Source: Chitinophagaceae bacterium IBVUCB2
GTDB taxonomy: Bacteria > Bacteroidota > Bacteroidia > Chitinophagales > Chitinophagaceae
Assembly (NCBI GenBank): GCA_002127295.1
Contig: NFUV01000001.1
Location: forward strand, 1,364,001-1,428,000
DNA length: 64,000 bases
Direction of reading: 5' to 3'
Position 1 is the first letter of the stretch. Each line of letters opens with the position of its first letter. The notes under the pieces are model-generated. The model did no database searches, was not told where the DNA came from, and saw only the letters and a list, made by a program, of their open reading frames with translations. Shown here one piece after another: positions 2,550 through 48,318 of this stretch. Made by a program: the position numbers and the translations under genes.

Positions 2550-2579
2550 ATATTGATTAGCTAATTTATTTAAATACAA

Positions 2580-3046: not shown

Positions 3047-3050
3047 TTCT

Positions 3051-3059: not shown

Positions 3060-3070
3060 ATAGCTGAAAA

Positions 3071-3472
3071 ATGATTGACGTTGTAAAAGAAATAAACTTT
3101 CAAACTACCCGAAGTGGCGGTAAGGGTGGGCAAAATGTAAACAAAGTGGAAACAGCTGTCATTGCATCATTTAATATTGACAGCTCACAAATATTGAATG
3201 AGGAACAAAAATTAATACTAAAAGAAAAACTATCTCACCGCATTACTGCCGAAGGTTATTTGCAGGTAAAAGCTCAAACTCACAGAACCCAATTATCCAA
3301 TAAAGATGAAGCGGTAAAAAAAATCAACCAGTTATTGCTTGCTGCACTGCAAAAGAAAAAGGCACGGATTGCTACCAAAGTCAGCAAAGCATCCAAAGAA
3401 AAAAGATTGGAGTCAAAAAAAAGAAAAGCTGAAATAAAATCCGGAAGACAAAAATTTAAACGGGAAGACTAA
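3071..3472 (+). CDS. arfB: Alternative ribosome-rescue factor / peptidyl-tRNA hydrolase ArfB (YaeJ)
   Basis: Releases peptides from ribosomes stalled without a stop codon. The release-factor GGQ motif is present in TRSGGKGGQNVNKVET (about residues 13-28). The 133-residue protein ends in a strongly basic tail (KKRKAEIKSGRQKFK) like that used by ArfB to probe the empty mRNA channel. It lacks the recognition domain of RF1/RF2, which excludes a full release factor. It lies divergent from dtd, another factor that deals with faulty tRNA esters. Confidence 0.94.
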   Translation: MIDVVKEINFQTTRSGGKGGQNVNKVETAVIASFNIDSSQILNEEQKLILKEKLSHRITAEGYLQVKAQTHRTQLSNKDEAVKKINQLLLAALQKKKARIATKVSKASKEKRLESKKRKAEIKSGRQKFKRED

Positions 3473-3524
3473 CCGCTTTTTAACACGAAAAGAAAGCTGT
3501 AAATTGTATATTCAATTGAACACA

Positions 3525-5407: not shown

Positions 5408-6943
5408 TTGACGGATAAATTTAAATTTTCCAATCCTTTGAGCGGTATTAAAAAACTGGCTGGACAAACTTTATGGTATGGGGTAAGCAGTATTTTCGGT
5501 CGCTTCCTTAATTACCTGCTTACACCGCTATTGGTTACCATTTTTGCTTCAGGAGAATATGGCAAAATCAGTACGCTTTTTACTATCGCCGCATTTTTGA
5601 ATATTATTTATACCTACGGTCTCGAAACTTCGTATTTCCGTTTTGCAGCATTGCAGCCAGAAAGCAAAGTTTATAATACTTGCTCCTCGTCCATTCTTAT
5701 TACCACAGCCTTGTTAACAGGCATCCTTTTTCTATTTACAAATGACTTTGCTGTTTTCCTGGAAATGCCCAAACACCCGGAATATATTACCTGGGTTATA
5801 CTGATTGTAGCGTTAGATACATTGGCCGTCATGCCATTTGCAAAACTCCGCCATGAAGGGAGGCCAAGAAAATTTGCCGCTATAAAAATATTGAACATAC
5901 TGATCAATGTTGGGCTGGTTATTTTTTTCCTGGTAGTTTGTAAGAATGCACATGAAAAAGATGCGGATAATCTTTTTGCCACTTTATATAATCCTAAAAT
6001 AGGATTGGGTTATGTAATCCTTGCTAACCTGGTTGCCAGTGGTGTCACTTTATTATTATTAGCCAAAGAATTTTTCCAATTCCGTTTCCGGCTGAACCCT
6101 GGCTTCTGGAAAGAAATGATGCGCTACAGCTGGCCCCTCATCATTGTTGGTTTTGGCGGTATGATCAATGAAACCATTGACCGTATCATGCTGCTGAAAT
6201 TATATCCCGGCACGACGGAAGAAGCATTTTCGCAATCTGGTATTTACTCGGCCAATTATAAACTGGCAGTAGTAATTGTTTTGTTCATACAGGCATTTCG
6301 TATGGGTGCGGAACCTTTCTTTTTTAAACAATCCACTTCAGATAATGCGCAGCGGACTTATGCAAGGGTGATGAAGTTCTTTGTTATTGCATGTTGCTTT
6401 TGCTTTTTAGGCGTCACCTTATTTCTCGATATCTGGAAATATTTTATGGGTACCCGTTATCCAGAATATTACACCGGTTTGAAAATTGTACCACTGTTGA
6501 TGTTGGCTAAAATTTTTCTGGGTATCTATTACAATCTTTCAATCTGGTATAAAATAAAAGAAAAAACATTGACCGGAGCCTGGATAACACTGGGTGGTGC
6601 AGCAATTACGATTGCCTTCAACTGGATATTTATTCCGATACTTGGCTATATGGCTTGTGCTATTGCCACGGTTCTATGTTATGGATTTATGATGGCCCTT
6701 AGCTATTCGCTGGGGCAAAAACATTATCCTATTCCGTATGCAAGAAAAAAAATATTGGCTTATATAGCAGTTTGCCTGATCTTTTTTGGATTGCACCAGG
6801 CATTTCTTTTACTGGATCTGAATAGTTGGATAAACCGTGGAGTAGGTTTATTCTTTGTAGGTTTATTTACATTGCTGGTATTGAATGTAGAACGAAAAGA
6901 GTTTGAAAGAATGCCGGTGGTGGGGAAGTTTTTGAAAAAATAG
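5408..6943 (+). CDS. Polysaccharide biosynthesis protein / Wzx-type flippase (MOP superfamily)
   Basis: A 511-residue inner-membrane protein with about 14 hydrophobic segments. It starts with LAGQTLWYGVSSIFGRFLNYLLT-like sequence typical of O-antigen/teichoic acid flippases, which move lipid-linked saccharides across the inner membrane. No ATG is available near the start: a TAG stop immediately precedes TTG at 5408, so TTG is the first possible start, and no Shine-Dalgarno is seen. No glycosyltransferases flank it, so it is an orphan flippase whose lipid-linked substrate cannot be inferred. The polar C-terminus is short. Confidence 0.88.
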   Translation: MTDKFKFSNPLSGIKKLAGQTLWYGVSSIFGRFLNYLLTPLLVTIFASGEYGKISTLFTIAAFLNIIYTYGLETSYFRFAALQPESKVYNTCSSSILITTALLTGILFLFTNDFAVFLEMPKHPEYITWVILIVALDTLAVMPFAKLRHEGRPRKFAAIKILNILINVGLVIFFLVVCKNAHEKDADNLFATLYNPKIGLGYVILANLVASGVTLLLLAKEFFQFRFRLNPGFWKEMMRYSWPLIIVGFGGMINETIDRIMLLKLYPGTTEEAFSQSGIYSANYKLAVVIVLFIQAFRMGAEPFFFKQSTSDNAQRTYARVMKFFVIACCFCFLGVTLFLDIWKYFMGTRYPEYYTGLKIVPLLMLAKIFLGIYYNLSIWYKIKEKTLTGAWITLGGAAITIAFNWIFIPILGYMACAIATVLCYGFMMALSYSLGQKHYPIPYARKKILAYIAVCLIFFGLHQAFLLLDLNSWINRGVGLFFVGLFTLLVLNVERKEFERMPVVGKFLKK

Positions 6944-7268: not shown

Positions 7269-7913
7269 TCAATACATCTTCACAAACGGATTATTCATTT
7301 TCTCGAAACCAACCGTAGTTACCGGCCCATGTCCGCTATACACTTTCGTTTCATCCGGCAACGTGAAAAACTGGGTTTGAATGCTATTAACTAAAGTTGC
7401 CATATTTCCTCCGGGCAGATCGGTTCTGCCAACACTTCCATTAAACAATACATCACCTCCGATAATAAAGCCGCCGGCTTCATGATAAAAAGAGATACTA
7501 CCGGGGGAATGACCCGGAGTAAAACGGATTTCCAGTTCATCATCCCCGATTTTTATAGAATTTCCTTCTTTTAAGTAAACCAAAGGGCCCTCATAATTGT
7601 CGAAAGGGAGTTGGTACATAAGTCCTGATTGTGCGGCAAAATCCAGCACCGGTTTTTCTTTTTCGTGTAGATGGAGGGTTAGTCCCCAGGTATCATGTAC
7701 GAATTTGTTGCCGAAAACATGGTCGAGATGGCAATGTGTGTTAAGCAGCAAAACAGGGATCAGGCCTGTCTTTTCAATGCCCGTTTTTAACTCCTCCCTT
7801 TCTTCCGGAAAATAACAGCCGGGGTCTATAATGCAGCACTGTTTTTGTTCGTTATACAAAACATAGGTATTCTCCTGAATTGGACTAAAAGTGAATGACT
7901 TAACAGTTAACAT
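7269..7913 (-). CDS. Metallo-beta-lactamase-fold hydrolase (glyoxalase II-like)
   Basis: A 214-residue cytoplasmic metal-dependent hydrolase. The zinc motif THCHLDH (HxHxDH, about residues 58-64) is present, followed by FTPGHSPGSISFY, GGDVLFNGSVGRTDL and a terminal SGHGPVTT, the order found in YcbL/GloB-like enzymes. It likely cleaves a thioester such as S-lactoylglutathione or a similar thiol adduct. The start at 7913 (MLTVKSFTFSPIQENTYVLY) is the standard family start; an ATG at 7961 would add 16 unsupported residues. It lacks the C-terminal helical domain of classical GloB. The substrate is uncertain. Confidence 0.88.
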   Translation of the reverse strand: MLTVKSFTFSPIQENTYVLYNEQKQCCIIDPGCYFPEEREELKTGIEKTGLIPVLLLNTHCHLDHVFGNKFVHDTWGLTLHLHEKEKPVLDFAAQSGLMYQLPFDNYEGPLVYLKEGNSIKIGDDELEIRFTPGHSPGSISFYHEAGGFIIGGDVLFNGSVGRTDLPGGNMATLVNSIQTQFFTLPDETKVYSGHGPVTTVGFEKMNNPFVKMY

Positions 7914-8050: not shown

Positions 8051-11000
8051 ATGAAGAAAGTATTAAGCCTGATTGCCTGCCTTTCCACTTTCCTTAGAAT
8101 GGAAACTGCAGCGCAAGTGAACACCGTTGAATTTGGTAAGAACCGAGTGCAATACCAAAAATTCAAATGGAAATATTACCAGACAGAAAATTTCAACAGC
8201 TATTTTAGCCAGGATGGTTTGGGGCTTGGCAAATATGTAGCCCAGGTTGCTGAACTGGAGCTTCCTTCTATTGAAGAATTTGTTGAATATGGCTTACAAC
8301 GTCGTGCCAATATTGTAGTGTATAATAACTACGATGAAATGCAACAATCAAACATAGGACTGGGTATTGACTGGCAAACCACCGGTGGTGTTACAAAACT
8401 GGTGAATAATAAAATGCTTGTTTATTTTGATGGCAATCACGATAATCTTCGCCGTCAGATCAGGCAGGGCATTGCAAAAATTTTAGTGGATAATGTTTTA
8501 TTTGGTGATGACCTTGGTGAGTTTGCTGCTAACCAGGCTTTGCTTGATCTACCAAAATGGCTCACTGACGGTTTTATTTCCTATGCCGCTGAGAACTGGA
8601 GCACTTCTTTAGATGATGACCTTCGCTCCGCCATGCTTGCCGGTTCGTATAATAATTTTTACCAGTTTGCTTTTGATAAGCCATTGCTGGCTGGCCATTC
8701 GTTCTGGAAATATATTGCTGATAAGTATGGTAAAAATAAAACTACCTATTTCTTATACCTGTCCCGTATTTATCGCAACCTGAACAATGCCTCTAATAAA
8801 ATTGCGAAGAAGAAATTCAAAAAACTGTTGCAGGATTTTATGGTGGATGTGCAACAGCAATACTTTAAAGACATTCGGGGACGTCGTAATACTCCAAAAG
8901 GTCAATTATCTATCAGCGAAACAGTTGGCAAAAAAGATTATATACGCTTTAATGCAAACCCTGTTCCCCGCAGCTTTACCTATGCCTTGGTGGAGTTTAC
9001 ACAAGGCCGCTACCAGGTAGTGCTGATGGAAAATTTTGTTAACCGGAAAATATTATTAAAACTCGGCGTTCGTAGCCGTGAGGATGACAAACATCCTAAT
9101 TATCCAATACTGGCATGGGATGGAAAAGGCACCCGGCTTGCTGTATTATACAATGAAGAAGGAAAAACAAAATTCTTTGTATATGATATGGTGAACCGTA
9201 CCAAACTCTGGAAGCAGGAGATTGATAAGTTTGACCAGGTGCAGGATATGAAATATATGCTTGATAACAATACCCTGCTCATGAGTGCGGTAAGAAGTGG
9301 ACAGACAGATATTTTTATTTATAAAATTGACAAACAAACTATTGAACAGGTTACTAATGATGTGTATGATGATTTAGATCCATCGTTTGTAGCATTTCCC
9401 AATAAAACGGGTGTACTGTATTCCAGCAACAGGCCATCAGCCAATGCTGCAAGCAGTGATGATTCACTACCAGGCGAGCACTTTAATATTTATTTAGTTG
9501 ACAATTGGAACAAATCAGATGTAAAGCAAATTTCGAAAATGACAGATTTGAAATTTGGTAATGCAAGATTTCCTTCACAATACAACCAGTCACATTTCAC
9601 CTTCATTAGTGATGAAAATGGTATCAATAATCGCTATGCAGGATTTTTTAAAACTGAACGGGCTGGTCTTGATACATTAGTATTTATTGGTGATGAAATG
9701 TTGCGCAACCCTCCGCAAAACGAGGTGGATAGCTTATTAAAAGAATGGAATAAAACAGATATTGATTCTGTAGGATTTGTTTCTATTACTAACGATTCTG
9801 CCTATGTGTTTCCATTAACAAACTACCAAAGCAGTATGCTGGAAACAAGAACCGCAGGCGATAATCAACAAGTAAGCGAAGTAGTGAAGCTGGGTGATAC
9901 AAAATTATTATACCGCCTGCGGGTAGACGAGAATACATTACGCCGCCGTAATGTAAATGCAAGTCCAACAGAGTATCTGCGCAAATTAATTGAAGAAGAG
10001 AAGAAAGCAGCCCGCAAAGGAGCCAGTTATCAACCCACAGTAGATACCGCTACCAAAAAACCGCAGGATTTCTTTAATACGGGCTTTGATGAAGAGAAAA
10101 GAGACAGCGCAACGACTGGCAATGTCACAGGGACCAATCAACCAGCATTAGATCCTATTCTAAAAAAAGCAAAAGTTTTTGAATACCGGCCACCTAAATT
10201 TTTTACTGATTACCTGGTTAGTGGTTTTAACAATAATGTATTGGTAACCCGTTTCCAGGCATACCAGGGAGGCAGCGGCCCTATCAATCTCAGCAACGGC
10301 AATCCTTTTAATGGTATACTTCGCTTGGGCACCTCTGATTTATTTGAAGATTGGAAATTTGCCGGTGGCTTACGTATCAGCCCCAACTTCAATAATAATG
10401 AGTATGTATTAACTGCACAATACCTTAAGAAGAGATTAGATTATGGTTTTACCTATTACCGTAACACAGTGGATAATCCACCACTGTATGACGATTCTCT
10501 TTATTTTGCGAAATCCTTTACTAATCTTTACCAGGCAACTATATCTTACCCTTTCAATAAAATAAAGAGCATCCGTTTTAATTTGGCATACCGGAGTGAT
10601 AAGTATGTAACATTGTCTACAGACCCTACCTCACTTACAACTCCCGACAACAGGCTAGGTTATGCATTGGCACATATTGAATATGTACATGACGATGCTG
10701 TTTCACCTGCTATGAATATTTGGAATGGGCTTCGGTGGAAAGCATTCCTTGACTTTAATACCCAAATCAGCAAGAGCGGTTCAAAGGGAACGGGTGATTA
10801 TCCTATTACTATGAACGTTGGCTTTGATGCAAGACATTATTTGCCGATATACCGTAATATAATTTGGGCTGTAAGAGGTGCCGCAGATTTTTCGTGGGGC
10901 GATCAGAAAATTATTTACTATTTGGGTGGTGTTGACAACTGGTTATTTCCAAAATTCAACAATGCCAATAAACCAGACCCTGATAATACTTATGCGTACC

Positions 11001-37878: not shown

Positions 37879-38082
37879 ATGCATAAAATGAAAAACCTTC
37901 GATTTTTAGCTGTCGCTTTGAGCCTCATGGTGTTACTATCTTCTTGTGGTATGTTTGGCAATTTGTTTAAACGCAAACAAGGCTGTCCTACCAACGGAAA
38001 AAATGTAGGCGCTGAGAAAATTCTAAGTGGTGACCCCGATGGATCAAAAGCGGCTAAAAAAGCCAAAAAGTTCAGAAGTTAA
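37879..38082 (+). CDS. Small lipoprotein
   Basis: A 67-residue protein with a lipoprotein signal: hydrophobic FLAVALSLMVLLSSC with Cys at about residue 23. After it come a short basic stretch (FKRKQGCPTNGKNVGAEKIL) and a Lys-rich tail (KAAKKAKKFRS). Start at ATG 37879 or 37888. A TAAATTCG box at 37858-37865 (one mismatch to TAnnTTTG) lies just upstream. Small basic lipoproteins of this kind are common and uncharacterised in the phylum. Confidence 0.72.
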   Translation: MHKMKNLRFLAVALSLMVLLSSCGMFGNLFKRKQGCPTNGKNVGAEKILSGDPDGSKAAKKAKKFRS

Positions 38083-38147
38083 TTAATTGTTTTGTGCAGC
38101 TAAATTCCACCCAATCCAGTCTATGATAAAACCTAAATACCTTAACT

Positions 38148-38477
38148 ATGAGCCTCACCCTACGAACCAACCTCGGCTGTACCGAAGCCGTTATTTCCGA
38201 TGATGGCGGATTAAAACAATTCTACCATGTGGCCGATGTACTGAGCCAGGATTTCAAAGTAAAATTTTCGCACAAAGAAGATGACTTTGATACCATTGAT
38301 TGGGAATTCAAATTCAAAGGTCATTACCTTACTCTTCACTACAACATTTACAACGGCATTTCTATTTTTCCGACCAAAACCCGTGATGCCCTGAACAAGG
38401 ACAACAAAGCGGTGGTGGAATTAGCAGCTGTACTGGAAGACCGTTTGTTTAATGAAGGAAGAAGGAATATTGCATAA
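38148..38477 (+). CDS. Hypothetical cytoplasmic protein
   Basis: A 109-residue soluble alpha/beta protein without signal or membrane segment. I do not recognise a named family. The sequence (SLTLRTNLGCTEAVISDDGG ... WEFKFKGHYLTLHYNIYNG ... VVELAAVLEDRLFNEGR) is compact, with beta strands then a C-terminal helix. Its composition and codon use resemble its neighbours. It lies downstream of the small lipoprotein gene, convergent with rsgA. Confidence 0.75.
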   Translation: MSLTLRTNLGCTEAVISDDGGLKQFYHVADVLSQDFKVKFSHKEDDFDTIDWEFKFKGHYLTLHYNIYNGISIFPTKTRDALNKDNKAVVELAAVLEDRLFNEGRRNIA

Positions 38478-38508
38478 TGCTTCTTGTTATCGTGGGAACA
38501 GGCCGTTA

Positions 38509-39435
38509 TTAATAACTCTTCTGCTCTATCGATTCCATAATACCTAAATAGCTTATATACCGGTCTTCATGAATTTCCTGGTTGTTGACCGCTTCTTTAA
38601 TGGCACAACCCGGTTCATTGTAATGCAAACAATTATTGAACTGGCAATTGTTTAAACGATCTCTCATCTCCGGGAAATAGTGTGATACTTCCTGCTTCTC
38701 AATATCCACCAACCCGAATTCCCGCATACCTGGAGTATCAATAATTTTTCCGCCGCCTGGCAGATCATACATTTCCGCAAACGTAGTAGTATGCTGTCCT
38801 TTTCCGCTCCATCCACTTACATCCTGTGTCTTTAAATTTATTGCTGGAAAAATCACATTCAATAAAGATGATTTACCAACCCCGCTATGTCCACTTACTA
38901 ATGTTGTTTTATTTCGCAGCACATCAATCACTTCTTCCACTCCTTCTTTTTTCTCCGCACTCATCAGCAAAACTTTATATCCAACAGCTTCATACATTTC
39001 TTTCCATTGTGCAAATTTTTCCAGTTCCTTGCTTTTATAGAGGTCGGATTTATTGAAAACAATTACTGCCGGCACATGATACATTTCTGAAGCCACTAAA
39101 AACCGGTCGATAAATCCTTGTGATGTTTTTGGTTCTTTTAACGTAGCAACCAGCATAGATTGGTCAAGATTAGAAGCGACAATATGATGCTGAAATTTAT
39201 GGCGGGGTGATTGTCGGTTAATATAATTCCGCCGGTCATGAATATCACTGATGATCGCTGTTCCTGCAGTTTCATCTTCAATTTCCATTTCTGCCCAATC
39301 TCCTACTGCTACCGGGTTGGTACTGGTAATATCATCCAGCTTCATAGCACCTTTGGTACGGCCATTCCAAAACTTCCCGGATTCATCTTTCAAAATGTAC
39401 CAGCTACCGGTTGATTTATATACAAGGGCTTTCAT
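38509..39435 (-). CDS. rsgA: Ribosome small-subunit-dependent GTPase A
   Basis: A circularly permuted GTPase that helps mature the 30S subunit. Domains in order: OB fold (about 1-70), then the G domain with permuted motifs NKSD (G4), GHSGVGKSSLLN (G1), and DTPGMREFG (G3). The C-terminal zinc knuckle CQFNNCLHYNEPGC follows. The ATG at 39435 (MKALVYKSTGSWY) is preferred over 39444. It lies 26 bases after the BatA-like gene and may belong to the same transcript. Confidence 0.96.
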   Translation of the reverse strand: MKALVYKSTGSWYILKDESGKFWNGRTKGAMKLDDITSTNPVAVGDWAEMEIEDETAGTAIISDIHDRRNYINRQSPRHKFQHHIVASNLDQSMLVATLKEPKTSQGFIDRFLVASEMYHVPAVIVFNKSDLYKSKELEKFAQWKEMYEAVGYKVLLMSAEKKEGVEEVIDVLRNKTTLVSGHSGVGKSSLLNVIFPAINLKTQDVSGWSGKGQHTTTFAEMYDLPGGGKIIDTPGMREFGLVDIEKQEVSHYFPEMRDRLNNCQFNNCLHYNEPGCAIKEAVNNQEIHEDRYISYLGIMESIEQKSY

Positions 39436-39461
39436 TGGCTGCAAGATAACAGAATAAATTC

Positions 39462-40475
39462 TCAGGGGAATTTTCTAAACACAGTAAATCGTAAAAGGAC
39501 TTCGATAAACAAGAACAGTAATGCAGCGAGAACAAACCAAAGAAACCGTTCTTCAAATCTTTTAAAAGATGTTACTTCTACTTTCGATTTTTCTAATTTA
39601 TCAATCTGTTTATAAATATTTTTCAGTCCATCCTTATCTCTTGCTCTAAAATACTTTCCACCGGTTTCATTCGCAATTTTACCAAGCAATGCCTCATCTA
39701 AAAATTCACCAGCTGGGTTTTTCTTTGCCTTTGCATTGCCGGTGTTTTCTACAATAGTAGAAGGTGCAGCACTCATTCCGATAGTGTAAACTTTTACCTG
39801 TTTCGATTTAGCAATTTCTAATGCTGTTAACGGGTCAATCAGTCTTGTTTCCGGTGGGTCTTCCTTACCATCCGTTAATAAAATGATCACTTTGCTTTTA
39901 CCGGCACTTTTAGAAAGTCTGTCAACAGCAGTAGCCAATCCTTCTCCAATTACCGTCCCATCAATTAGATACCGGCGACTTTCCAGCGTTTGAATTTGGG
40001 TGATCAATGTATTCTTGTCCGTAGTAATTGGACTTTGCGTAAAACTTTCTCCTGCAAAAACCACAAGGCCAATTCTATCAACCGGGCGGCTTCTTACAAA
40101 CTCTTCAGCAACTTCTTTTGCCACTTCCATTCTGGAGGGCAATATATCTCTTGATCCCATACTACCGCTTACATCCATACACAAAACAATATCTATTCCA
40201 TCACCTTGTGTTTGTTGTTCATCATTTCTTTTTTGGGGACGGGCCAACGCAACTATCAAACAACTTAATGCCAGTAACCGAAGTATAAAAGGAAAATGAC
40301 GAAACCGATTTTTCCAGGAAGAAACAGTGAAAGCACGGCTGGTGGATACATTGATGGTTGCACTATGTTTATCATGCTTCTTTACATACCACCATATCAA
40401 CACCGGTAGCAATGCAAATAATGCAAAGGCATAAGGATACGCAAAGTCCATATTTTTAATCCACTCGTATAGCAT
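39462..40475 (-). CDS. BatA-like von Willebrand factor A domain membrane protein
   Basis: A 337-residue inner-membrane protein. It has N-terminal helices (FAYPYAFALFALLPVLIWWY and FILRLLALSCLIVALA), a von Willebrand A domain with the MIDAS motif DVSGSMGS (D-x-S-x-S, about 98-105) and LTDGKEDP, and a C-terminal transmembrane helix (FLWFVLAALLFLFIEVLL). Such proteins form an envelope-associated complex with MoxR ATPases. The start ATG at 40475 shares a base with the stop of the previous gene (TGATG), a sign of translational coupling. Other Bat genes (BatB, BatC) are not found next to it. Confidence 0.92.
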   Translation of the reverse strand: MLYEWIKNMDFAYPYAFALFALLPVLIWWYVKKHDKHSATINVSTSRAFTVSSWKNRFRHFPFILRLLALSCLIVALARPQKRNDEQQTQGDGIDIVLCMDVSGSMGSRDILPSRMEVAKEVAEEFVRSRPVDRIGLVVFAGESFTQSPITTDKNTLITQIQTLESRRYLIDGTVIGEGLATAVDRLSKSAGKSKVIILLTDGKEDPPETRLIDPLTALEIAKSKQVKVYTIGMSAAPSTIVENTGNAKAKKNPAGEFLDEALLGKIANETGGKYFRARDKDGLKNIYKQIDKLEKSKVEVTSFKRFEERFLWFVLAALLFLFIEVLLRFTVFRKFP

Positions 40476-41380
40476 CAGCGTAGTTGTTCAATCCCCTGGA
40501 TTGATTTTTTAATTGTATCCAATATCATTTTATCATCTTCAGGACCGGGTATATATTTTGCGAATTTTACGAAATCACTTAACCGCAATGCTTGCGAAAG
40601 CTGGTCGAAACTTTCCTTATTCATATCCAATCCTTTTAACTGTATCACCAGGTCATCCATAGTTTTTTGAAGAGAAAGAATTCCTTTTTTTCGAAAAACA
40701 TATAATCGGAAAACATCCGTAAGCTCTGAATAATACTGTTTCGTATCCGGCTTATTTCTTTCAATGGCTGCAATTTTTGCCATTGCTTCTTCATACGGAT
40801 TGATAACCGCCTTCGGTGCTGCAACCGGTGCTGGTTTTTTCTTCGTCAATAAATAAACAATCAGTATCAAGAGTATTACTCCTGCACCAGCAACATACCA
40901 CCACCATTGTTGTTTCTTCTCTGCAGGTTCTATTTCTATAATATCTTTTATATCATGATAAGGCTGTTCCGGGTTAAATGGAGAAAACCCTACATCAACA
41001 GGGATGGTATCAGTTTTCAAACTTTCGGTCAATGAAAAAGAAGGAATTACCCAATGGCCGGAATCAAAACTGGTAATGGGAATAATTTGAATAAGCTTAG
41101 TACCATTGCTCGTATTAGTAGTATCAATTTTTCCCGGTTGCAAAAATTCAAAATGCGGAATACTATCTATTGAAAAAAAACGGATCGACTCATTCTCCGG
41201 AATATTTACCTCCAGGGTTAATTGAATGGGCTCCCCGATCAAAATCAGGTTTCTGTCTACTGTTGCCTTGACCGTTGTGCCATTTTGTGATGACGCCAGC
41301 AATGCTACAATTAAATAAACTGCAGTAAAAAATATTTTATGAAATTCCTTCTTGATCATTTGATAAACTAATGCTGCCAC
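40475..41380 (-). CDS. BatD/DUF4381-like single-pass membrane protein of the Bat operon
   Basis: A 301-residue protein. A signal peptide (start at 41380 or more likely the ATG at 41359) leads to a beta-sandwich periplasmic domain (about 30-140) like the BatD immunoglobulin-type fold. A transmembrane helix (WWYVAGAGVILLILIVYLL, about 162-180) is followed by a cytoplasmic helical tail resembling DUF4381 (YEEAMAKIAAIERNK, YYSELTDVFRLYVFRKKG). It is shorter than standard BatD (about 550-600 residues), so the name is only by analogy. It lies between the DUF58 and BatA-like genes with an 8-base gap and a one-base overlap. Confidence 0.78.
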   Translation of the reverse strand: MAALVYQMIKKEFHKIFFTAVYLIVALLASSQNGTTVKATVDRNLILIGEPIQLTLEVNIPENESIRFFSIDSIPHFEFLQPGKIDTTNTSNGTKLIQIIPITSFDSGHWVIPSFSLTESLKTDTIPVDVGFSPFNPEQPYHDIKDIIEIEPAEKKQQWWWYVAGAGVILLILIVYLLTKKKPAPVAAPKAVINPYEEAMAKIAAIERNKPDTKQYYSELTDVFRLYVFRKKGILSLQKTMDDLVIQLKGLDMNKESFDQLSQALRLSDFVKFAKYIPGPEDDKMILDTIKKSIQGIEQLR

Positions 41381-41387
41381 GGGTGAT

Positions 41388-42260
41388 TTACCGGTTGCGG
41401 CTGATAAAAAATTTCTGCAGCACTTTTACATAATCTTCATCGGTGCGGATATGCAATAAATCGCATCCGGCTTTCTTAAATACCCGGGTGCTATAGTCGG
41501 TAACTCGGAAAAATTCCTGTTCATAACTATAGCGAACAAAATTATTACTGGTATCAACCCATTTTGATTTTCCTGATTCGGAATCTTGTACCTGCAATAA
41601 ACCTGCTTCAGGTAATTTCATATCCATTTTGTCATACAGCTTAATGCCGATCACATCATGTTTTTTTCCAGCGATACGTAAGGCATCTTCATAGTTAGCA
41701 TCAATAAAATCGCTTAATACAAACGCAATGCTTTTTTGCCGGGTAGAATTATTAAAATACCGGAGAGCCTTACTCACAGCCGTCCCTTTTCCTTTTGGCT
41801 CAATACTTAATAGTTGCCGGACAATATACAAAGCATGTTGCTTTCCTTTTTTAGGTGGTATATAGGCTTCTACCACATCGCTATAAAAAATAACCCCTAC
41901 TTTATCCGCATTGTTTACGGCTGAAAAACTTATGACCGCCGCTATTTCGGTAATAATATCCCGTTTAGTTGCATGAACTGTTCCAAATAAAGAACTGTTA
42001 CTTATATCTATCAATAACATAACTGTCAACTCTCGTTCCTCTTCAAACACTTTACTAAAAGGATGACCAAACCTTGCCGACACATTCCAGTCGATAAAAC
42101 GAATATCGTCACCGGCCGCATACTCTCTCACTTCTTTAAACGACATGCCTTTTCCTTTAAAAGCACTATGATACTCCCCGGTAAATAAATCGGTAGTGAT
42201 CTTCTTGCTTTTAATTTCAAGCTGACGAACTTTTTTTAGTATTTCTTGAGTTGTGAGCAT
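41388..42260 (-). CDS. DUF58 domain protein
   Basis: A 290-residue cytoplasmic protein with the DUF58 signature GDDIRFIDWNVSARFGHPF (about 49-67). It is followed by a von Willebrand-like fold beginning ELTVMLLIDISNSSLFG (degenerate MIDAS D-x-S-x-S) and AFVLSDFIDANYEDALRI. DUF58 proteins work with MoxR AAA ATPases in protein-complex assembly. Its ATG (42260) lies next to the inverted repeat of the four-helix-bundle element, so its usual upstream region has been replaced by that element. Confidence 0.93.
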   Translation of the reverse strand: MLTTQEILKKVRQLEIKSKKITTDLFTGEYHSAFKGKGMSFKEVREYAAGDDIRFIDWNVSARFGHPFSKVFEEERELTVMLLIDISNSSLFGTVHATKRDIITEIAAVISFSAVNNADKVGVIFYSDVVEAYIPPKKGKQHALYIVRQLLSIEPKGKGTAVSKALRYFNNSTRQKSIAFVLSDFIDANYEDALRIAGKKHDVIGIKLYDKMDMKLPEAGLLQVQDSESGKSKWVDTSNNFVRYSYEQEFFRVTDYSTRVFKKAGCDLLHIRTDEDYVKVLQKFFISRNR

Positions 42261-42264
42261 ATCA

Positions 42265-42733
42265 GATGTCGGGTGAGAGTTGTCAGGTGTCGGTTACTTT
42301 AAATTTAAATTGGTTTCAAAATATTTTATCAGTCCTCCCAATAGTTTTCTACATTCTTCCAATAATAAAATCAATTCTGGAAGTTTAGCTTGTTGTAAAT
42401 AATTTAAGTCAGCAGCAATATATAATTGTGTTTCTAATTCATACAGAGAGCCTCTTGCAATATGAAAGAACTGAATACTCTCCTTTTTATATTGCCTGCC
42501 ATATCCTTCTGCAATATTAGATGGGATTGAAATTGCACTTCTTCGCATTTGAGAAACAAGACCATAGAGTTCATCTTTAGGAAAATCCTTTGTCGAAAGA
42601 TAAATCTCCTTAACAAAAGCCCTTGCTTTAACCCAAACATCCAAATCCTTGTATGTCTTATACTCTGCCATTCTAAAAATATTACTGCATAAGTCTTGTT
42701 TACGCCGACAACTCACATCCCACACCCGACAAC
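42265..42733 (-). mobile_element. Putative non-autonomous element: four-helix-bundle gene with 29-bp terminal inverted repeats
   Basis: Arms at 42265-42293 and 42705-42733 are inverted copies of each other with 23 of 29 matching bases. Each arm itself holds two direct TGTCGG words 21 bases apart (for example GTTGTCGG at both ends of the moxR-side arm). The arms enclose one gene, whose stop codon directly abuts one arm, and the whole lies exactly between the moxR stop and the DUF58 ATG. No transposase and no clear target duplication are seen. That it moved in is an inference from its structure and position. Confidence 0.55.
42294..42671 (-). CDS. Four-helix-bundle protein (23S rRNA intervening-sequence protein family, PF05635)
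   Basis: A 125-residue all-helical protein of the S23/IVP family. It has the typical AEYKTYKDLDVWVKARAFVK start, YGLVSQMRRSAISIPSNIAEGYGR (about 42-65, the family's most conserved part) and FFHIARGSLYELETQLYIA. Members were first found inside 23S rRNA intervening sequences and are also scattered as single genes in Bacteroidota; the function is unknown. The related Avd protein serves diversity-generating retroelements, but no reverse transcriptase is present here. The ATG at 42671 is preferred over 42725. A TATTTTTA box lies just upstream, so it may carry its own promoter. Confidence 0.93.
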   Translation of the reverse strand: MAEYKTYKDLDVWVKARAFVKEIYLSTKDFPKDELYGLVSQMRRSAISIPSNIAEGYGRQYKKESIQFFHIARGSLYELETQLYIAADLNYLQQAKLPELILLLEECRKLLGGLIKYFETNLNLK

Positions 42734-42736
42734 CTC

Positions 42737-43735
42737 CTATGGTACATTAATTTGTTTCAACACATCTTCAATTACATCCACCACATTTACATTCTCAGCT
42801 TCTGCTTCATACGTAAGTCCGATACGATGCCTCAGCACATCTTTACAAATACTTCTAACATCTTCCGGAATTACAAAGCCACGTTTATTTAAAAATGCCT
42901 GTGCTTTTGCCGCTAACCCGAGATTGATACTTCCCCGGGGAGAAGCACCGTAAGAAATCAGTGGTTTTAATTTTTCCAGTTTATATTTTTCAGGCTGTCT
43001 GGTTGCAAAAACAATATCCAGAATATACTGTTCAATTTTTTCATCCATATAAACCTGGCGGGTCAGGTCTTTTGCATTGGTTACCTCTTGTATGGAAACA
43101 ACCTGGTTGATCGTTGCAAATGCACCTTGTATATTCTGACGAAGAATTAATTGCTCTTCCGCCATTTTCGGATAGTCCACTACTACTTTCATTATAAATC
43201 GGTCAACCTGAGCTTCGGGTAAGGGATATGTTCCTTCCTGCTCCAATGGATTTTGTGTTGCTAATACTAAAAAAGGTTCATCCAGTTTATAAGTAGTATC
43301 ACCAATGGTCACTTGTCTTTCCTGCATTGCTTCTAATAAAGCACTCTGCACTTTTGCCGGAGCCCGGTTTATTTCATCGGCCAAAATAAAATTGGCAAAA
43401 ATGGGGCCTTTGCGTACAACAAATTCATTGCGTTGCTGATTATAGATCAATGTTCCAATTACATCGGCAGGCAACAGATCAGGTGTGAACTGTATCCGGC
43501 TGAATTTGGCATGAATTGCCTGGGCCAACGACTTTATCGTAAGTGTTTTAGCCAGGCCCGGTACGCCTTCCAGTAGAACGTGGCCATTACTTAAAAGGCC
43601 AATCAATAGTCTGTCAAGCATATGGCTCTGACCAATGATCACATGTCCAATCTCTTCTCTTAGTTTATCAGTAAACTGCCCGGCGTGACTAATTTTCTCG
43701 TTCAATTGCCGGATATCATCAGCGGTTTTTAGCAT
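42737..43735 (-). CDS. MoxR family AAA ATPase
   Basis: A 332-residue cytoplasmic AAA+ chaperone-like ATPase. Walker A is GVPGLAKT (about 56-63), Walker B FILADEINRAP, then the sensor region ATQNPLEQEGTYPLPEAQVDRF split over the conserved block, and arginine-finger and lid sequences (SYGASPRGSINLGLAAKA). It is thought to remodel von Willebrand-domain partners, here the DUF58 and BatA-like proteins encoded downstream. The operon is interrupted right after its stop codon by the four-helix-bundle element. Confidence 0.95.
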   Translation of the reverse strand: MLKTADDIRQLNEKISHAGQFTDKLREEIGHVIIGQSHMLDRLLIGLLSNGHVLLEGVPGLAKTLTIKSLAQAIHAKFSRIQFTPDLLPADVIGTLIYNQQRNEFVVRKGPIFANFILADEINRAPAKVQSALLEAMQERQVTIGDTTYKLDEPFLVLATQNPLEQEGTYPLPEAQVDRFIMKVVVDYPKMAEEQLILRQNIQGAFATINQVVSIQEVTNAKDLTRQVYMDEKIEQYILDIVFATRQPEKYKLEKLKPLISYGASPRGSINLGLAAKAQAFLNKRGFVIPEDVRSICKDVLRHRIGLTYEAEAENVNVVDVIEDVLKQINVP

Positions 43736-43886
43736 GGGCTTTATTTATGGTGACACAAAATACGACAAGCCTTATGCAAATTATTTGCCGTTATTGTAAA
43801 TCCCTGAAAATCCGGCACTATTTTAGAGTATTTGTACTTTCCTGTACAGGGAAATATTGTTTATTTTGTCGCTAAATCCAACATTT

Positions 43887-44348
43887 ATGCAAAAAAGAAA
43901 TTTCGCCATCGTAATCTGTCTTAGTGCCACTATATTTTTAGCATCTTGTAGTAAAGAGGATGATAACACCACTCCTCCTGCAAAAACAAAAACAGAATTA
44001 TTGACAACAGGTACCTGGAAGTTTAGTACTGCTTTCGTAGGACCCAATAACGTAAATGCATTTTTACAAGGTTGTCAGAAAGATAATATCATGACTTTTA
44101 CCGCTGCAGGACTTACCGGCACCTTAGATGAGGGCCTTACAAAATGTAACGCCGGCGATCCTCAGACAAGTCCTTTTACATGGAGCTTTGCCAGTGGTGA
44201 AACAGTACTAAATATTTCAACTCCATTATTTACAGGAGGTAGTAGCACTTTTACATTGGTTAGTTTGACTGCTACAGAACTAAAAGTATCTCAAAACATA
44301 ACTGTCAGTGGCACAACTCAGAATGCAGTTGTAACGTTTATTCACTAA
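43887..44348 (+). CDS. Lipocalin-like domain lipoprotein
   Basis: A 153-residue lipoprotein: signal MQKRNFAIVICLSATIFLASC with Cys at 21. A small beta-barrel of the lipocalin-like family common in Bacteroidota follows (LLTTGTWKFSTAFVG, MTFTAAGLTGTLDEG, FTWSFASGETVLNIS, LTATELKVSQ). Ligand unknown. The ATG at 43887 is chosen because the ten residues before it lack signal character. A near-palindrome TTTCCTGTACAGGGAAA lies 32 bases upstream. Confidence 0.82.
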   Translation: MQKRNFAIVICLSATIFLASCSKEDDNTTPPAKTKTELLTTGTWKFSTAFVGPNNVNAFLQGCQKDNIMTFTAAGLTGTLDEGLTKCNAGDPQTSPFTWSFASGETVLNISTPLFTGGSSTFTLVSLTATELKVSQNITVSGTTQNAVVTFIH

Positions 44349-44350
44349 AA

Positions 44351-46033
44351 TCAGGAAAGATATTTCCCCACTATAGGGACTCGTCTGCCCACTCCAAATG
44401 CTTTTGGAGATATACGGATGATGGGGCAAAACTGGTTGCGTTTATACTCATTTACATTTACCATTTTTAATACACGGTCTACCAGAGCAGGGTCAAAACC
44501 CTGCTCTTTTATCTCCTTTGGACCTTGTCGTCTTTCGATGTATTGGTATAATACCCTGTCAAGAATCCCATAATCGGGCAAGGAGTCAGCATCTTTTTGT
44601 CCCGGCCTCAATTCTGCAGAGGGTGGTTTAGTGATGATATTTTGCGGAATTATTTCTTTATAGCGATTGATATAGTTTGCCAATGCATACACCTGCATTT
44701 TATAACAATCACCCAATACTCCGATGCCCCCTGCCATATCTCCATATAAAGTACCGTAGCCGGTTGCTAATTCACTTTTATTAGAAGTGTTCAATAAAAT
44801 ATATCCAAACTTATTAGCGATGGCCATTAATAAATTACCTCTTGTTCTGGCCTGTATATTCTCTTCTGCCAGGCTAAACGGCAAGTCCTTATAAATGGGT
44901 TTTAGCTCCGTCAAAAAGCTCTCATAAATATTTTTTATCGGAACGATATCGTAAGGATTGCCGAGATTCTTACTCAATTGCTCTGCATCGCTTACAGAGT
45001 GCCCTGTCGAATATTGAGAAGGCATCAGGATTGCTCTTACATTTTCTTTACCCAATGCATCGCATGCTAATGCTAAAGTTACTGCACTATCTATCCCACC
45101 ACTACTACCTAAAATGGCTTTACTGAAACCCATCTTGGAAAAATAATCCTGGATAGCCATTACAATGGCATCATAAATTTCTGCAGTACATAAGCTATGA
45201 TCTAACTCAGCAGGATTAAATTCTGCATCGGGTAAATCTTTCGCAACAGCTAATACTGGTTGCACAAAAGTTCCGTCCTCTTTTAATTCAAATATTTCCA
45301 TCGCTTCTTTAAACAAGGGCAACTGTTTTACGAGGTTAGAATTTTTATCGAACACCAATGAAGCGCCGTCAAATACGATTTCTGTTTGACTACCCACGCA
45401 GTTGCAATACAACATTGGTAATTTATACTTAGCAGTATTGAGTTTCAGGATAGCTTTTCTATCTTCTACATGAGTGTAATCAAATGGTGAAGCAGAAATA
45501 TTCAGCATGATATCCGGTTGCTGTTTCATCAATTCATCCATCGGGCAATTACGATACAAAGGATTGTCGCCGAGATTCCAGATGTCTTCGCAAATTGTAA
45601 TAGCTAACTTCTTCTCTCTAAATTCAATGGTATTCCAACTATAGGCGGGTTCAAAATAACGATATTCATCAAACACATCATAATTAGGCAAACATGTTTT
45701 ATGAGCAACTGCCTTAACTTCTTTTTCATAGAGAAACCAGGCTGCATTAAATAGATCTTTTCCCTCCCGAACCGGATTTTTATCGGGAGCACCTACTACC
45801 ACTGCAATTGTATCTGCATGTTGCTTAATTTCATCGATTGACTTATTGCATTTAGCAATAAAATCATCGAACTCTAAAAAATCACGGGGAGGATAGCCGC
45901 AAATACATAGCTCAGAAAACAGCACTAAGTCTGCTCCTTGTTTTTTTGCCCATTGAATACCTTCGATAATTTTCCGGGTATTATCTTCAAAATTTCCGAT
46001 GTGATAATTTTGCTGCGCCAGTGCAATTTTCAT
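44351..46033 (-). CDS. nadE: Glutamine-dependent NAD+ synthetase
   Basis: Makes NAD from deamido-NAD, ATP and glutamine. An N-terminal nitrilase-type glutaminase domain (about 1-255: ADLVLFSELCICGYPPRDFL with Glu, AHKTCLPNYDVFDEYRYF with Lys, LYCNCVGSQTE with the catalytic Cys) is fused to the synthetase domain. That domain has the P-loop LGSSGGIDSAVTLAL (about 313-327) and TSNKSELATGYGTLYGDMAG. Its 560 residues match the bacterial short two-domain form. A perfect -7 box lies four bases before the ATG. nadC, another NAD-synthesis gene, lies at 51.2 kb but in a separate unit. Confidence 0.96.
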   Translation of the reverse strand: MKIALAQQNYHIGNFEDNTRKIIEGIQWAKKQGADLVLFSELCICGYPPRDFLEFDDFIAKCNKSIDEIKQHADTIAVVVGAPDKNPVREGKDLFNAAWFLYEKEVKAVAHKTCLPNYDVFDEYRYFEPAYSWNTIEFREKKLAITICEDIWNLGDNPLYRNCPMDELMKQQPDIMLNISASPFDYTHVEDRKAILKLNTAKYKLPMLYCNCVGSQTEIVFDGASLVFDKNSNLVKQLPLFKEAMEIFELKEDGTFVQPVLAVAKDLPDAEFNPAELDHSLCTAEIYDAIVMAIQDYFSKMGFSKAILGSSGGIDSAVTLALACDALGKENVRAILMPSQYSTGHSVSDAEQLSKNLGNPYDIVPIKNIYESFLTELKPIYKDLPFSLAEENIQARTRGNLLMAIANKFGYILLNTSNKSELATGYGTLYGDMAGGIGVLGDCYKMQVYALANYINRYKEIIPQNIITKPPSAELRPGQKDADSLPDYGILDRVLYQYIERRQGPKEIKEQGFDPALVDRVLKMVNVNEYKRNQFCPIIRISPKAFGVGRRVPIVGKYLS

Positions 46034-46037
46034 GTTA

Positions 46038-46045
46038 CAAATTTA
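46038..46045 (-). promoter_or_regulatory. TAnnTTTG -7 box of nadE
   Basis: Minus-strand TAAATTTG is a perfect match to TAnnTTTG and ends four bases before the nadE ATG. This predicts a transcript that begins at or next to the start codon. Confidence 0.5.
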
Positions 46046-46133
46046 CATGAATGAGGAAGGATTTAACGGTAATTTTTAAACCACTAATTTCGTTCTCACA
46101 ACAATTACAATCAGCATTACGTTTACAATAGCT

Positions 46134-47165
46134 ATGAAAAAAACAGCCATTGCATTATTGCTAGCCATTTCACTTTTCGCCTGCAAAGAGAAAAAAGATG
46201 TTCCGAATGTTTCGGATATAAATATAGACATCAAATTAGACCGGTTTGATAGGGATTTTTTTGCCATTGACAGTAATAATGTATTGCCCGGATTAAATGC
46301 ATTGAATAACAAATACCCTGTTCTTACTTCCATTTTTTTGGAAAATATTTTAGGACTTGACAGTGGCTCTACTTTACCCGGAGTAAAACAATTCCTCAGC
46401 CTTAGCGGAGGTTTATATGATACGGTAAATGATGTTTTCAAAAACACTAACAATCTTGAAAAAGATTTCAAACAGGCATTTCAATTTGTAAAGTATTATT
46501 TTCCCCAGTATAAAGTACCAACTATTGCTACTATTGCCGGCCCGGTTGATGCAATGGCTCAATCTGAAACAGGCCCCACACCTAATTTTTTAGCTCCGGG
46601 TGTTTTAGGTATCAGCCTGCAATTTTATCTGGGTCGTAATTTCTCAGTTTACAGCGATCCTTTCTTTATTGAAAATGTAGCTCCCGGATACCGCAGTCGC
46701 CGCTTTAGTAAAGAATACATTATTGCTGATGCGATGCAATTGGTAGCAGCAGATATTTTTCCTGATAAAAGCAAAGGAAAGCCATTGGTTGAGCAAATGA
46801 TCGAGAGAGGTAAGCAATGGTATTTATTAGACAAATTTTTACCAACAACTCCCGACTCCATTAAGATCGGCTACACACAACGACAAGTAAACTGGTGCAA
46901 GGAGAACGAAGGTTTGATATGGAGTTATATTGTAAAAAATGAAGACCTGTATTCTTTAAACCCGGCAGTTATCCAGGTATATATTGGTGAAAGCCCTTTT
47001 ACACAAGGCTTTTCGCAAGAACTTTCTCCCGGAAATCTTGGCCCCTGGATCGGTTGGCAGATCATTAAAAAATATGCAGGCAAAAACAGCAGCCTGAAAC
47101 CAGAAGAAATAATGAATACAGATGCAAAAAAAATATTAGATGAAGCAAAGTACAAACCGAAATAA
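46134..47165 (+). CDS. gldB: Gliding motility lipoprotein GldB
   Basis: A 343-residue lipoprotein (signal MKKTAIALLLAISLFAC, Cys 17) required for gliding and type IX secretion in Flavobacterium johnsoniae. The family opening DINIDIKLDRFDRDFFAIDS is clear, as are AFQFVKYYFPQYKVP, LSPGNLGPWIGWQIIKKY and the closing MNTDAKKILDEAKYKPK. It is divergent from nadE, an arrangement also seen in other Bacteroidota. gldC, which follows gldB in Flavobacterium, is not here. A box TACGTTTA with one mismatch to the -7 consensus precedes it. Confidence 0.93.
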   Translation: MKKTAIALLLAISLFACKEKKDVPNVSDINIDIKLDRFDRDFFAIDSNNVLPGLNALNNKYPVLTSIFLENILGLDSGSTLPGVKQFLSLSGGLYDTVNDVFKNTNNLEKDFKQAFQFVKYYFPQYKVPTIATIAGPVDAMAQSETGPTPNFLAPGVLGISLQFYLGRNFSVYSDPFFIENVAPGYRSRRFSKEYIIADAMQLVAADIFPDKSKGKPLVEQMIERGKQWYLLDKFLPTTPDSIKIGYTQRQVNWCKENEGLIWSYIVKNEDLYSLNPAVIQVYIGESPFTQGFSQELSPGNLGPWIGWQIIKKYAGKNSSLKPEEIMNTDAKKILDEAKYKPK

Positions 47166-47265
47166 ACATTCGTTCTGCAACTGTTATTCATCACAACCGT
47201 ATTTTTAGAAATTACTGCCTTTTTAACGGCTCTCTGGCTGATAAATTCCGTAATTTCGCTTCCTC

Positions 47266-48318
47266 ATGAAGTCTCTCGCAGCAACACTTACAGACCCGGT
47301 TTATACCCCTAAAGAAAATTTTACCTGGTACGATAAATTCTGGCTACGTTTTATGAACGATAAACGGGATTTACCATTTATTTATTTACTTACCACTATT
47401 CACTTACTGATATTACCGGTAGCAATTTTATTGTTTACACCAGTGTTACAAGGTTGGTGGTGGTGGGCAGTTGCTGTTCCTTATTTCTATCTTTCTCAAT
47501 TTTATTTTAAAGGAAGCTTTGGATTAATGTTTCATTGCTTTTGTCATCGTAAAACATTGAAAGCTCCGTGGCAAAAACCCTTTCATGCTTATGTGACCTG
47601 GATTATTTGTCCGCTATTTGGTCATGCCCCTGAAGGATATTTTAGCCACCATATGGGTATGCACCATATTGAAAACAACATGCCGGATGATACCAGTAGC
47701 ACTATGAAGTATCAACGGGATAGTTTAAGAGGTTTTCTTCATTACTTTTTTACGTTCATTTTTGTAGGTGTTATCAATACCATTCGGTATTTATTCAACC
47801 GCAAAAGAAAAAAACTCGGGCAGCGGCTTACCGCAGGTGAATATGTATACCTGGCCTTTTGCATTGTAATGTGTTTTGTAAACTTAAAGGCCACGATGTT
47901 GGTTTTTATTGTGCCCCTTTTATTTGCTAGATTGGTGATGATGCTCGGCAACTGGGCGCAACATTCTTTTATTGATGCCAAGGAGCCTGATAATCTTTAT
48001 AAGAGTTCTATCAATTGCATCAATACGGTGTACAATCATAAATGCTGGAATGATGGTTATCATATCATTCATCATCTTCGCCCCGGAATGCACTATACAG
48101 AAATGCCGGCTGAATTTTTAAAACGCAAAGATGAGTTTGCTGCCAATAAAGCAATTGTGTTTGATGGTATTCACTACCTGCACATTTTTACATGGCTGCT
48201 TACTAAACGCTACGACAAACTCGCCGATAACCTGGTGAATATTAATGGCAACATGTTTCAATCGAAAGAAGAAGCAATTATGTTGATGAAGGAAAGGACG
48301 AGGAAGATTGCCGTTTAA
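47266..48318 (+). CDS. Fatty acid desaturase family membrane protein
   Basis: A 350-residue di-iron membrane desaturase or hydroxylase. Histidine boxes are HCFCHRK (about 98-104), HHMGMHH (about 127-133) and HIIHHLRPGMHY (about 266-277), with HSFIDAKEPDN preceding the last box. Four hydrophobic segments are present. Its length and spacing fit fatty acid desaturases, though a sphingolipid or carotenoid target is possible. The ATG follows a TAATTTCG box by about 12 bases. It is not in an operon with gldB. Confidence 0.88.
   Translation: MKSLAATLTDPVYTPKENFTWYDKFWLRFMNDKRDLPFIYLLTTIHLLILPVAILLFTPVLQGWWWWAVAVPYFYLSQFYFKGSFGLMFHCFCHRKTLKAPWQKPFHAYVTWIICPLFGHAPEGYFSHHMGMHHIENNMPDDTSSTMKYQRDSLRGFLHYFFTFIFVGVINTIRYLFNRKRKKLGQRLTAGEYVYLAFCIVMCFVNLKATMLVFIVPLLFARLVMMLGNWAQHSFIDAKEPDNLYKSSINCINTVYNHKCWNDGYHIIHHLRPGMHYTEMPAEFLKRKDEFAANKAIVFDGIHYLHIFTWLLTKRYDKLADNLVNINGNMFQSKEEAIMLMKERTRKIAV

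Follow-up and report, generated by a model that had tools for sequence, protein, structure and literature searches.

Inverted heptamer arrays around an IVP gene at a moxR/DUF58 junction: a probable copy of a widespread one-gene element

The moxR/DUF58 junction of Chitinophagaceae bacterium IBVUCB2, within the 64,000-nucleotide stretch of DNA analyzed here (the window), holds a unit that is probably a copy of a widespread, slow-moving element with a single gene, the IVP product of which would read the element's own repeat word. The armed IVP unit is one case of a pattern that we confirm to be much wider than the preliminary description of this DNA had claimed. The arrangement of arm, gene, and arm is well supported across IVP genes, and the data also support a coupling between word and protein, similarity confined to the unit, recurrence at the same sites, and a patchy distribution. 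The unit and its neighbors in the window are as follows.

41388 to 42260, minus strand: DUF58/vWA gene, the downstream neighbor, its ATG 4 bases from the arm
42265 to 42293, plus strand: arm on the DUF58 side (the 3' arm of the IVP gene), TGTCGGG TGAGAGT TGTCAGG TGTCGG(T), a degenerate heptamer array
42294 to 42671, minus strand: IVP gene (23S rRNA-intervening-sequence family, four-helix bundle), with a likely ATG at 42671, 125 amino acids
42294 to 42725, minus strand: the mechanical open reading frame (ORF) of the IVP gene with a GTG start, matching the PF05635 profile (E 1.2e-40)
42705 to 42733, minus strand: arm on the moxR side (the 5' arm of the IVP gene), TGTCGGG TGTGGGA TGTGAGT TGTCGG(C)
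42737 to 43735, minus strand: moxR-type AAA ATPase gene, the upstream operon neighbor, its TAG stop 3 bases from the arm

The preliminary description reported two 29-base inverted arms at 42265-42293 and 42705-42733 with 23 of 29 positions matching, and our count by eye agrees; a repeat search of the window returns the pair as 27 nt at 81%, and the best inverted alignment at the locus scores 34. The paired TGTCGG words 21 bases apart are likewise present, at 42267 and 42288 on the plus strand and at 42705 and 42726 on the minus strand, and because the window arms are degenerate tandem heptamers, this spacing amounts to three units, the words being units one and four. The claim of structured ends therefore stands in part: the ends are structured, not as unique or conventional terminal inverted repeats but as element-specific arrays of degenerate 7-mers. 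The unit (469 bp) fills the 476 bp from the moxR stop to the DUF58 start, and the arms enclose the IVP gene only, both as described, the single gene seen in the unit being the PF05635 gene, whose protein begins MAEYKTYKDLDV (read within the ORF at 42294-42725). Among the ORFs and profile matches of the unit there is no transposase gene, no homing endonuclease gene, and no Y1 HUH (RAYT) gene, and positions 38000 to 48000 of the window gave zero Rfam matches at the gathering threshold. The window arms are too degenerate for the 70% lag-7 array filter, which finds zero arrays in the window; the case depends on comparison with other IVP loci.

The source genome (G000) has two PF05635 genes, the second of which (L002) is likewise enclosed by inverted arms (29 nt, 83%), with the word AGTCGGG. 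PF05635 is present in 150 of 195 genomes of Chitinophagaceae, with up to 17 matches per genome. Our first set of 91 loci (L001, L002, and 29 plus 60 more), drawn from the best-scoring end of the family match list, contains 98 IVP matches and 90 usable genes. The expectation that other IVP genes would prove to be armed was borne out, with 86 of the 90 scoring at least 28 (85 of 89 distinct, since L028 and L055 hold one element twice), compared with 80 of 900 mismatched-arm pairings and 8 of 525 windows displaced by 300 to 700 bp. At a score of at least 34, the figures are 67 of 90 IVP genes versus 36 of 900 mismatched pairings and 3 of 525 displaced windows. In a second, less biased set, consisting of 56 of 72 matches from five genomes (30 of 45 and 26 of 27) and partly overlapping the first, arms were found in 43 of the 52 copies measured versus 29 of 520 controls; the losses were three copies without a hit and one with too short a flank, and two of the five genomes are congeners with common sites.

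Beyond these sets, the best 80 of more than 580 loci from a scan of GTDB genomes (one of them, L256, also in the first set) yielded arms scoring at least 28 at 65 loci versus 35 of 640 mismatched pairs. Arms with a 7- to 9-base period occur in 20 named phyla, many represented by a single locus; 17 of the 20 reach a score of at least 32, and Cloacimonadota, Daviesiibacteriota, and Elusimicrobiota reach 28 only, which could be chance. Heptamer arms are also present at all five plasmid loci read (from among 30 IVP-matching plasmid records), all of them cyanobacterial and two of them near-identical copies in one strain. Phage records gave zero IVP matches.

The arms follow a common grammar. In both arms of the 86 armed genes of the first set, identity at lag 7 is 0.63 versus 0.31 after shuffling, and lags 1 to 6 and 9 to 13 give identity below 0.29. 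The best period is 7 in 70 of these genes and 8 in 15; among the 65 armed cross-phylum loci it is 7 in 47, 8 in 15, 9 in 2, and 5 in 1. The gene-facing strand is G-rich, with G exceeding C in 82 of 86 cases in the first set and in 63 of 65 across phyla, and the common form of the unit is A or G, then G, then five bases, with one or two positions free. Both arms of an element carry a common word, and words vary between elements. Across 469 kb of loci, the 70% filter finds 123 arrays at lag 7 and 22 at lag 8, and 0 to 3 at each of lags 5, 6, 9, 10, 11, and 13. Because many words contain TAA, TAG, or TGA, we considered delivery of stop codons as the purpose of the 7-base period and rejected it; AGGCAACA, GGATGTT, and CGTTGTC are without any stop. 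Among the mismatches that separate the two arms, G-U pairs are not preferred (91 versus 79, p = 0.40; 76 versus 100, p = 0.08), and this wobble test weakens conservation of an RNA stem and speaks for reading of the arms as DNA.

The word of an element changes along with its protein. Across the 85 distinct elements of the first set, arm similarity is correlated with protein identity (Mantel r = 0.535, 0 of 2000 permutations), and the word is kept, in the sense of exceeding the shuffled 95th percentile, in 91% of 82 pairs at 60 to 70% protein identity and in 100% of 87 pairs at 70 to 80%, pairs in which four-fold silent sites are at or near background (0.30 and 0.37, respectively). Below 50% protein identity, only 0 to 13% of first-set pairs keep the word. 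Many of these pairs occupy the same site, which confounds the test, and it was therefore repeated on pairs without a common flank gene, drawn from 179 distinct elements, with the 95th percentile of pairs below 40% identity as the baseline. At 70% protein identity or above, 21 of 22 such pairs exceed the baseline, the 22 not being independent, as a few elements recur in many of them; the proportion is 53% of 135 pairs at 60 to 70% identity and 18% of 232 at 55 to 60%, and at 50 to 55% it is 8% of 1024, with no signal below 55%. The IVP protein of L234, from KSB1, is 72% identical to that of L230 (Desulfobacteraceae) and 70% identical to that of L232 (Nitrospirae), and all three have AGGCACAA-type words; L253 and L350 have the common word AGGGAAC.

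Since the word is kept between pairs without common flanks, it tracks the protein and not the site alone, and its change together with the protein suggests, from sequence comparison, that the IVP protein most likely recognizes its own repeat word. An alignment of 11 IVP proteins has W9, Y20, P27, E30, L34, Q37, R40, and S44 invariant, together with N48, I49, E51, G52, F64, G70, S71, and E74, and the solved IVP relatives 2gsc and 2rld have five chains each.

IVP units recur at particular junctions. Homologous genes on both flanks are shared by 241 of 4005 first-set pairs, and twelve same-site clusters contain 64 of the 90 first-set elements. Clusters of the first set include the following, with gene names read from the protein sequences without a database search.

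argC/argD junction: 17 elements
leuA/leuB junction: 8 elements
moxR/DUF58 junction: 8 elements
atpD/atpC junction: 7 elements
rpoB/rpoC junction: 5 elements
ABC ATPase/MacA-like pair: 5 elements

Flanking genes are co-directional with the IVP gene at 64 of 76 judged loci, opposed at 8, and mixed at 4, a count in which same-site loci are not independent, and in the second set 43 of 46 copies are co-directional with both flank genes. The stop of an upstream forward ORF lies within 150 nt of the arm in 75 of 85 elements, at a median distance of 3 nt and within 10 nt in 56 of the 75; downstream, the distance from the arm to the first in-frame ATG within 150 nt has a median of 8 nt (n = 66), on a measure that favors short distances. 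The earlier idea of a small, discrete element that spares its host operon gains support from the arms around most IVP genes and from units at unrelated sites, and is further backed by presence that varies among congeners and by these mostly co-directional flanks. An exact 17-base 23S rRNA motif was found in 0 of 312 loci.

Two loci have long arrays of another kind nearby. In L232 (about 1955 to 4336, a Nitrospirae metagenome-assembled genome [MAG]), an IVP unit lies between apparent cas1 and cas2 genes, judged by eye, followed by an array with a period of ∼66 bp, which may explain why a 23S rRNA IVP is named in a CRISPR-linked figure legend in the available portion of PMC10910872. In L234 (1 to 1747, a KSB1 MAG), a long tandem array of ∼75-bp units lies directly upstream of the IVP unit.

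Similarity restricted to the unit at unrelated sites supports mobility of the IVP unit. L141 and L147, both in G004, are 80% identical over 455 bp, arm to arm, and the rest of the two loci gives no blastn match; no clear target-site duplication is seen by eye, and the arms may obscure one. Between genomes, L253 and L350 are 76.7% identical over 455 bp, with the downstream arm matched separately, and L230 and L232, from two phyla, are 67.6% identical over 432 bp, in both cases with dissimilar flanks. Within each of five genomes, IVP copies have a median identity of 0.23 to 0.32, with at most 3 pairs per genome above 50%, indicating that bursts are absent, that movement is rare, and that most copies are old. 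The members of the one 98% pair, L190 and L192, are 1.6 kb apart and represent a local duplication.

Presence at a given junction is patchy. At moxR/DUF58, 29 of 30 fetched junctions were readable, and 6 hold an IVP gene (one frameshifted); 7 further junctions have array-like or hairpin debris with other words (by eye; two are congeners). Comparison of this junction among relatives thus upholds patchy presence (6 of 29) and does not uphold a fresh insertion of the window copy. What recurs is the site: IVPs of the same clade sit at moxR/DUF58 in several genera and not in all relatives. At rpoB/rpoC, 27 of 30 fetched junctions were readable and 5 hold an IVP gene, and there are one IVP-less inverted pair and several arm-like relics (by eye); mapping the presences onto the host tree takes at least 5 changes, and in three genera presence varies from one congener to another. 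G130 carries the IVP element L191 where its congener G040 has a short IVP-less junction, the flanks being only 77 to 82% identical, and nine other IVP sites are common to both genomes. In G040, the counterpart of L189 lacks an IVP gene yet is not a clean empty site, and two further empty-site searches returned scattered matches only. One apparent empty site, at query 2457 to 2553 of the comparison within the genus of G173, was discarded, as no heptamer element was seen there on inspection.

Distances between IVP proteins and between their flanking proteins agree to differing degrees. At the moxR site, IVP distances are correlated with those of DUF58 at r = 0.22 (796 of 5000 permutations) and with those of MoxR at r = 0.31 (386 of 5000), against a yardstick of r = 0.90 between MoxR and DUF58 (0 of 5000), and simple vertical descent of the moxR-site IVPs is weakened by this lack of clear tracking. 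The IVP follows its flanks at leuA/leuB (r = 0.74 and 0.67; 3 and 10 of 2000) and at argC/argD (r = 0.37 and 0.32; 5 and 70 of 2000), and does not clearly follow them at rpoB/rpoC (r = 0.41 and 0.62; 136 and 207 of 2000; five loci), at atpD (r = 0.49; 78 of 2000), or at the ABC site (r = -0.25 and -0.17), all measured against a flank-flank yardstick that is itself weak (r = 0.90 at moxR, 0.87 at ABC, 0.61 at leuA/leuB, 0.48 at rpoB/rpoC, and 0.40 at argC/argD). The tree of IVP proteins is built on few columns and leaves 43 of 88 inner branches open. Because IVP divergence partly follows the flanks at argC/argD and leuA/leuB, much of the distribution may reflect vertical descent and loss, and the site record as a whole appears to combine descent, loss, and new arrival. 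Several IVP genes, among them those of L117, L051, L198, and L202, are interrupted by stop codons or frameshifts, which fits decay in place.

Similar arrays also occur away from IVP genes. A 400-kb portion of G173 contains 26 arrays at lag 7 and 6 at lag 8, with 0 to 3 at lags 5, 6, 9, 10, and 11, and 27 of these 32 arrays are more than 250 bp from any IVP gene. A separate tally across the loci, which placed 46 of 145 arrays far from an IVP gene, was set aside, since at least five of the 46 (in L100, L106, and L118) adjoin IVP genes that the tally had missed. Some are hairpins of ∼70 to 90 bp with many copies across three genomes of the genus, recurrent examples being at query 3896 to 3970, 5425 to 5510, and 8587 to 8667. 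Compared with the genome's own IVP words (nine arm pairs), the gene-less arrays of G173 show a modest excess of matches, a level that 13 of 200 controls also reach. Array length changes between congeners: beside one IVP gene the length difference is 90 bp for one array and 8 bp for its partner, at a second locus an array differs by 70 bp, and the other seven common loci show no array change.

Genes of a second kind have comparable arms. At the five GxxExxY loci read (L181 in G100:C19 and L345 to L348), the gene is bounded by inverted arms whose words are 8 or 9 bases long, for example of the CGCAAAG, CAGAGGACG, and GCGAAGGC types. The gene of L181 falls in the gap opposite L161 query 9987 to 10572, one GxxExxY unit sits inside fabD/fabG, and one site is occupied by an IVP element in G173 and by a GxxExxY gene with its own arms in the congener G100. 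As these genes are unrelated to IVP, their similar arms suggest that such arms may not be IVP's own. Viral contigs searched for GxxExxY yielded no relative. The same comparison shows other exchanges. In L181, the insert opposite L161 query 7680 to 7725 carries a gene with an HVHF motif, presumably RAYT-like, flanked by REP-type hairpins, and the corresponding junction of the congener G173 carries an array-like stretch in its place; the insert opposite query 5424 to 5499 is an extra G100 gene, which we take to be an ORF6N-domain gene, with no clear array arms, where G173 has an array hairpin. In L182 (G195:C104), the junction opposite L161 query 3896 to 4031 holds another intergenic repeat, with long inverted C/G runs of the CCCCCTAAATCCCCCAAAGGGGGACTT type, and G173 has an array there.

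These results can be brought together in a model in which the element would be one IVP (PF05635) gene enclosed by two arrays in inverted orientation. The degenerate word of these arrays, 7 bases long (or 8, rarely 9), is particular to each element, is shared by its two arms, and changes along with the IVP protein. An IVP oligomer might bind one array at each end and bring the ends together, and the unit may then be copied or moved by host repair or replication enzymes, by a nuclease, or by a reverse transcriptase. This analysis identified no trans-acting recombinase, nuclease, or reverse transcriptase, and the non-autonomous character suggested in the preliminary description is a conjecture. 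It would settle between co-directional genes, near the upstream stop and the downstream start, and we propose that the operon can for this reason still be read through and that loss of the unit is tolerated. Arrays would later change in length, and loss of the gene would leave solo arrays and hairpins.

One alternative is that IVP is a domesticated operon gene, inherited vertically with losses and immobile now, with arms that act in cis as an RNA or DNA device, such as an RNA stem for processing, a coupling of translation, or autoregulation. It would account for the 64 of 90 elements that fall into 12 same-site clusters across genera in sense orientation, for the partial agreement of IVP and flank distances at argC/argD and leuA/leuB, for the purifying selection on a protein that remains 60 to 80% identical with silent sites at or near background, for arms placed close to stop and start codons, and for the relics seen by eye in IVP-less junctions, which fit loss. 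Units that share their arms while occupying unrelated sites, both in one genome and between phyla, are difficult to reconcile with it, as are the differences in presence among congeners and the moxR-site IVPs that do not clearly track DUF58 or MoxR even though MoxR and DUF58 agree with each other; an RNA stem in particular would be expected to leave a G-U bias in arm mismatches, which is lacking. On balance we consider it unlikely.

More doubtful still is that the arrays are independent repeats or hairpins spread by other machinery, with IVP and GxxExxY genes as passengers or users, despite the abundance of IVP-less arrays, the 8- or 9-base arms of GxxExxY, which is a different protein family, and array lengths that vary between congeners; the word follows the IVP protein even at unrelated sites, and the two arrays beside an IVP gene share their word. 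It is scarcely credible that the window feature is an ordinary orphan gene surrounded by low-complexity sequence or by chance matches. Viewed in isolation, the window arms are short, degenerate sequences (79% over 29 bases) that fail the array filter, and a score of at least 34 arises in 36 of 900 mismatched pairings; against this stands the lag-7 specificity of arms and arrays, and for the whole pattern chance is ruled out by the controls of the first, second, and cross-phylum sets.

Under the preferred reading, that of a slow-moving element whose IVP protein would recognize its own word, a very common and puzzling family of IVP or "four helix bundle" genes gains a testable role as a tiny mobile element, and the coupling of protein and word offers a tractable problem of protein-DNA specificity with many natural pairs. 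It may also connect three loose ends, namely, orphan IVP genes, rRNA intervening sequences, and scattered heptamer repeats, and the survey shows that even core operons such as rpoB-rpoC and atpD-atpC tolerate such units. A broader proposal, which we advance tentatively and would not yet bet on, is that IVP and GxxExxY genes form an unrecognized class of mobile elements in ∼20 phyla, with self-read arrays of 7- to 9-base words that drift with the protein and with homing to conserved operon junctions, of which the 23S rRNA intervening sequences (IVSs), together with much of the heptamer DNA dispersed in Bacteroidota and Cyanobacteria, would be special cases and remnants.

Several known systems invite comparison. 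In REP/BIME systems with RAYT (TnpA-REP), a gene is flanked by inverted short repeats that are also dispersed without the gene, and word and protein go together; the repeats are palindromes, and RAYT is a tyrosine HUH transposase. The IVP gene similarly lies between inverted repeat copies with a word tied to the protein, whereas its repeats are tandem heptamers and not palindromes, and we know of no catalytic motif in IVP proteins. The same conserved site is occupied in different lineages in a patchy manner, as with homing-type elements, a pattern that losses could also produce. The window protein is a four-helix-bundle relative of Avd (bAvd) of the diversity-generating retroelements (PF22296, E 2.7e-8, below the family cut-off), and the accessible text of PMC10053308 notes the resemblance of PF05635 to Avd; in contrast to Avd systems, there is no template or variable repeat and no reverse transcriptase within the window unit.

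Our literature search found no link between IVP genes in general and repeat-array arms, subscription papers lying mostly outside it. The TAACTGA heptamers of Beggiatoaceae, Cyanobacteria, and some Bacteroidetes are, in the available sections of PMC4679880, tandem and intergenic, with many adjoining start codons, and sporadic across phyla with no evident transfer mechanism; they differ from the arrays described here in being direct repeats of one fixed word, and the main text of that article lacks the terms S23, four helix, and intervening and makes no link to S23/IVP genes. In work on 16S and 23S rRNA insertions of CPR bacteria, the 23S_rRNA_IVP domain is listed as functionally uncharacterized (PMC11270868, in the portion available).

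A close parallel is the 23S rRNA IVS itself. In the accessible part of PMC4990558, the IVS of Coxiella burnetii is 428 nt long, with an S23 ORF and with terminal inverted repeats that form a 28-bp stem. Its ORF is preceded by three heptamers in tandem (GACAGAT), the number of which varies between strains, and the IVS is suspected to be a mobile element of unknown mechanism. The window unit resembles it in being mostly filled by a PF05635 ORF, in its size and 29-bp terminal inverted arms (469 bp, compared with about 430 nt and about 28 bp for an IVS), and in heptamers that adjoin the ORF, degenerate in the window copy. It differs in lying between the protein genes moxR and DUF58 and not in an rRNA from which it is cut by RNase III, and in carrying arrays in both arms, with a word that varies with the protein, where those of Coxiella are described, in that part of the source, as 5' only and with no extension to other IVP genes. 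The 23S rRNA intervening sequences probably represent elements of this kind at a different conserved site.
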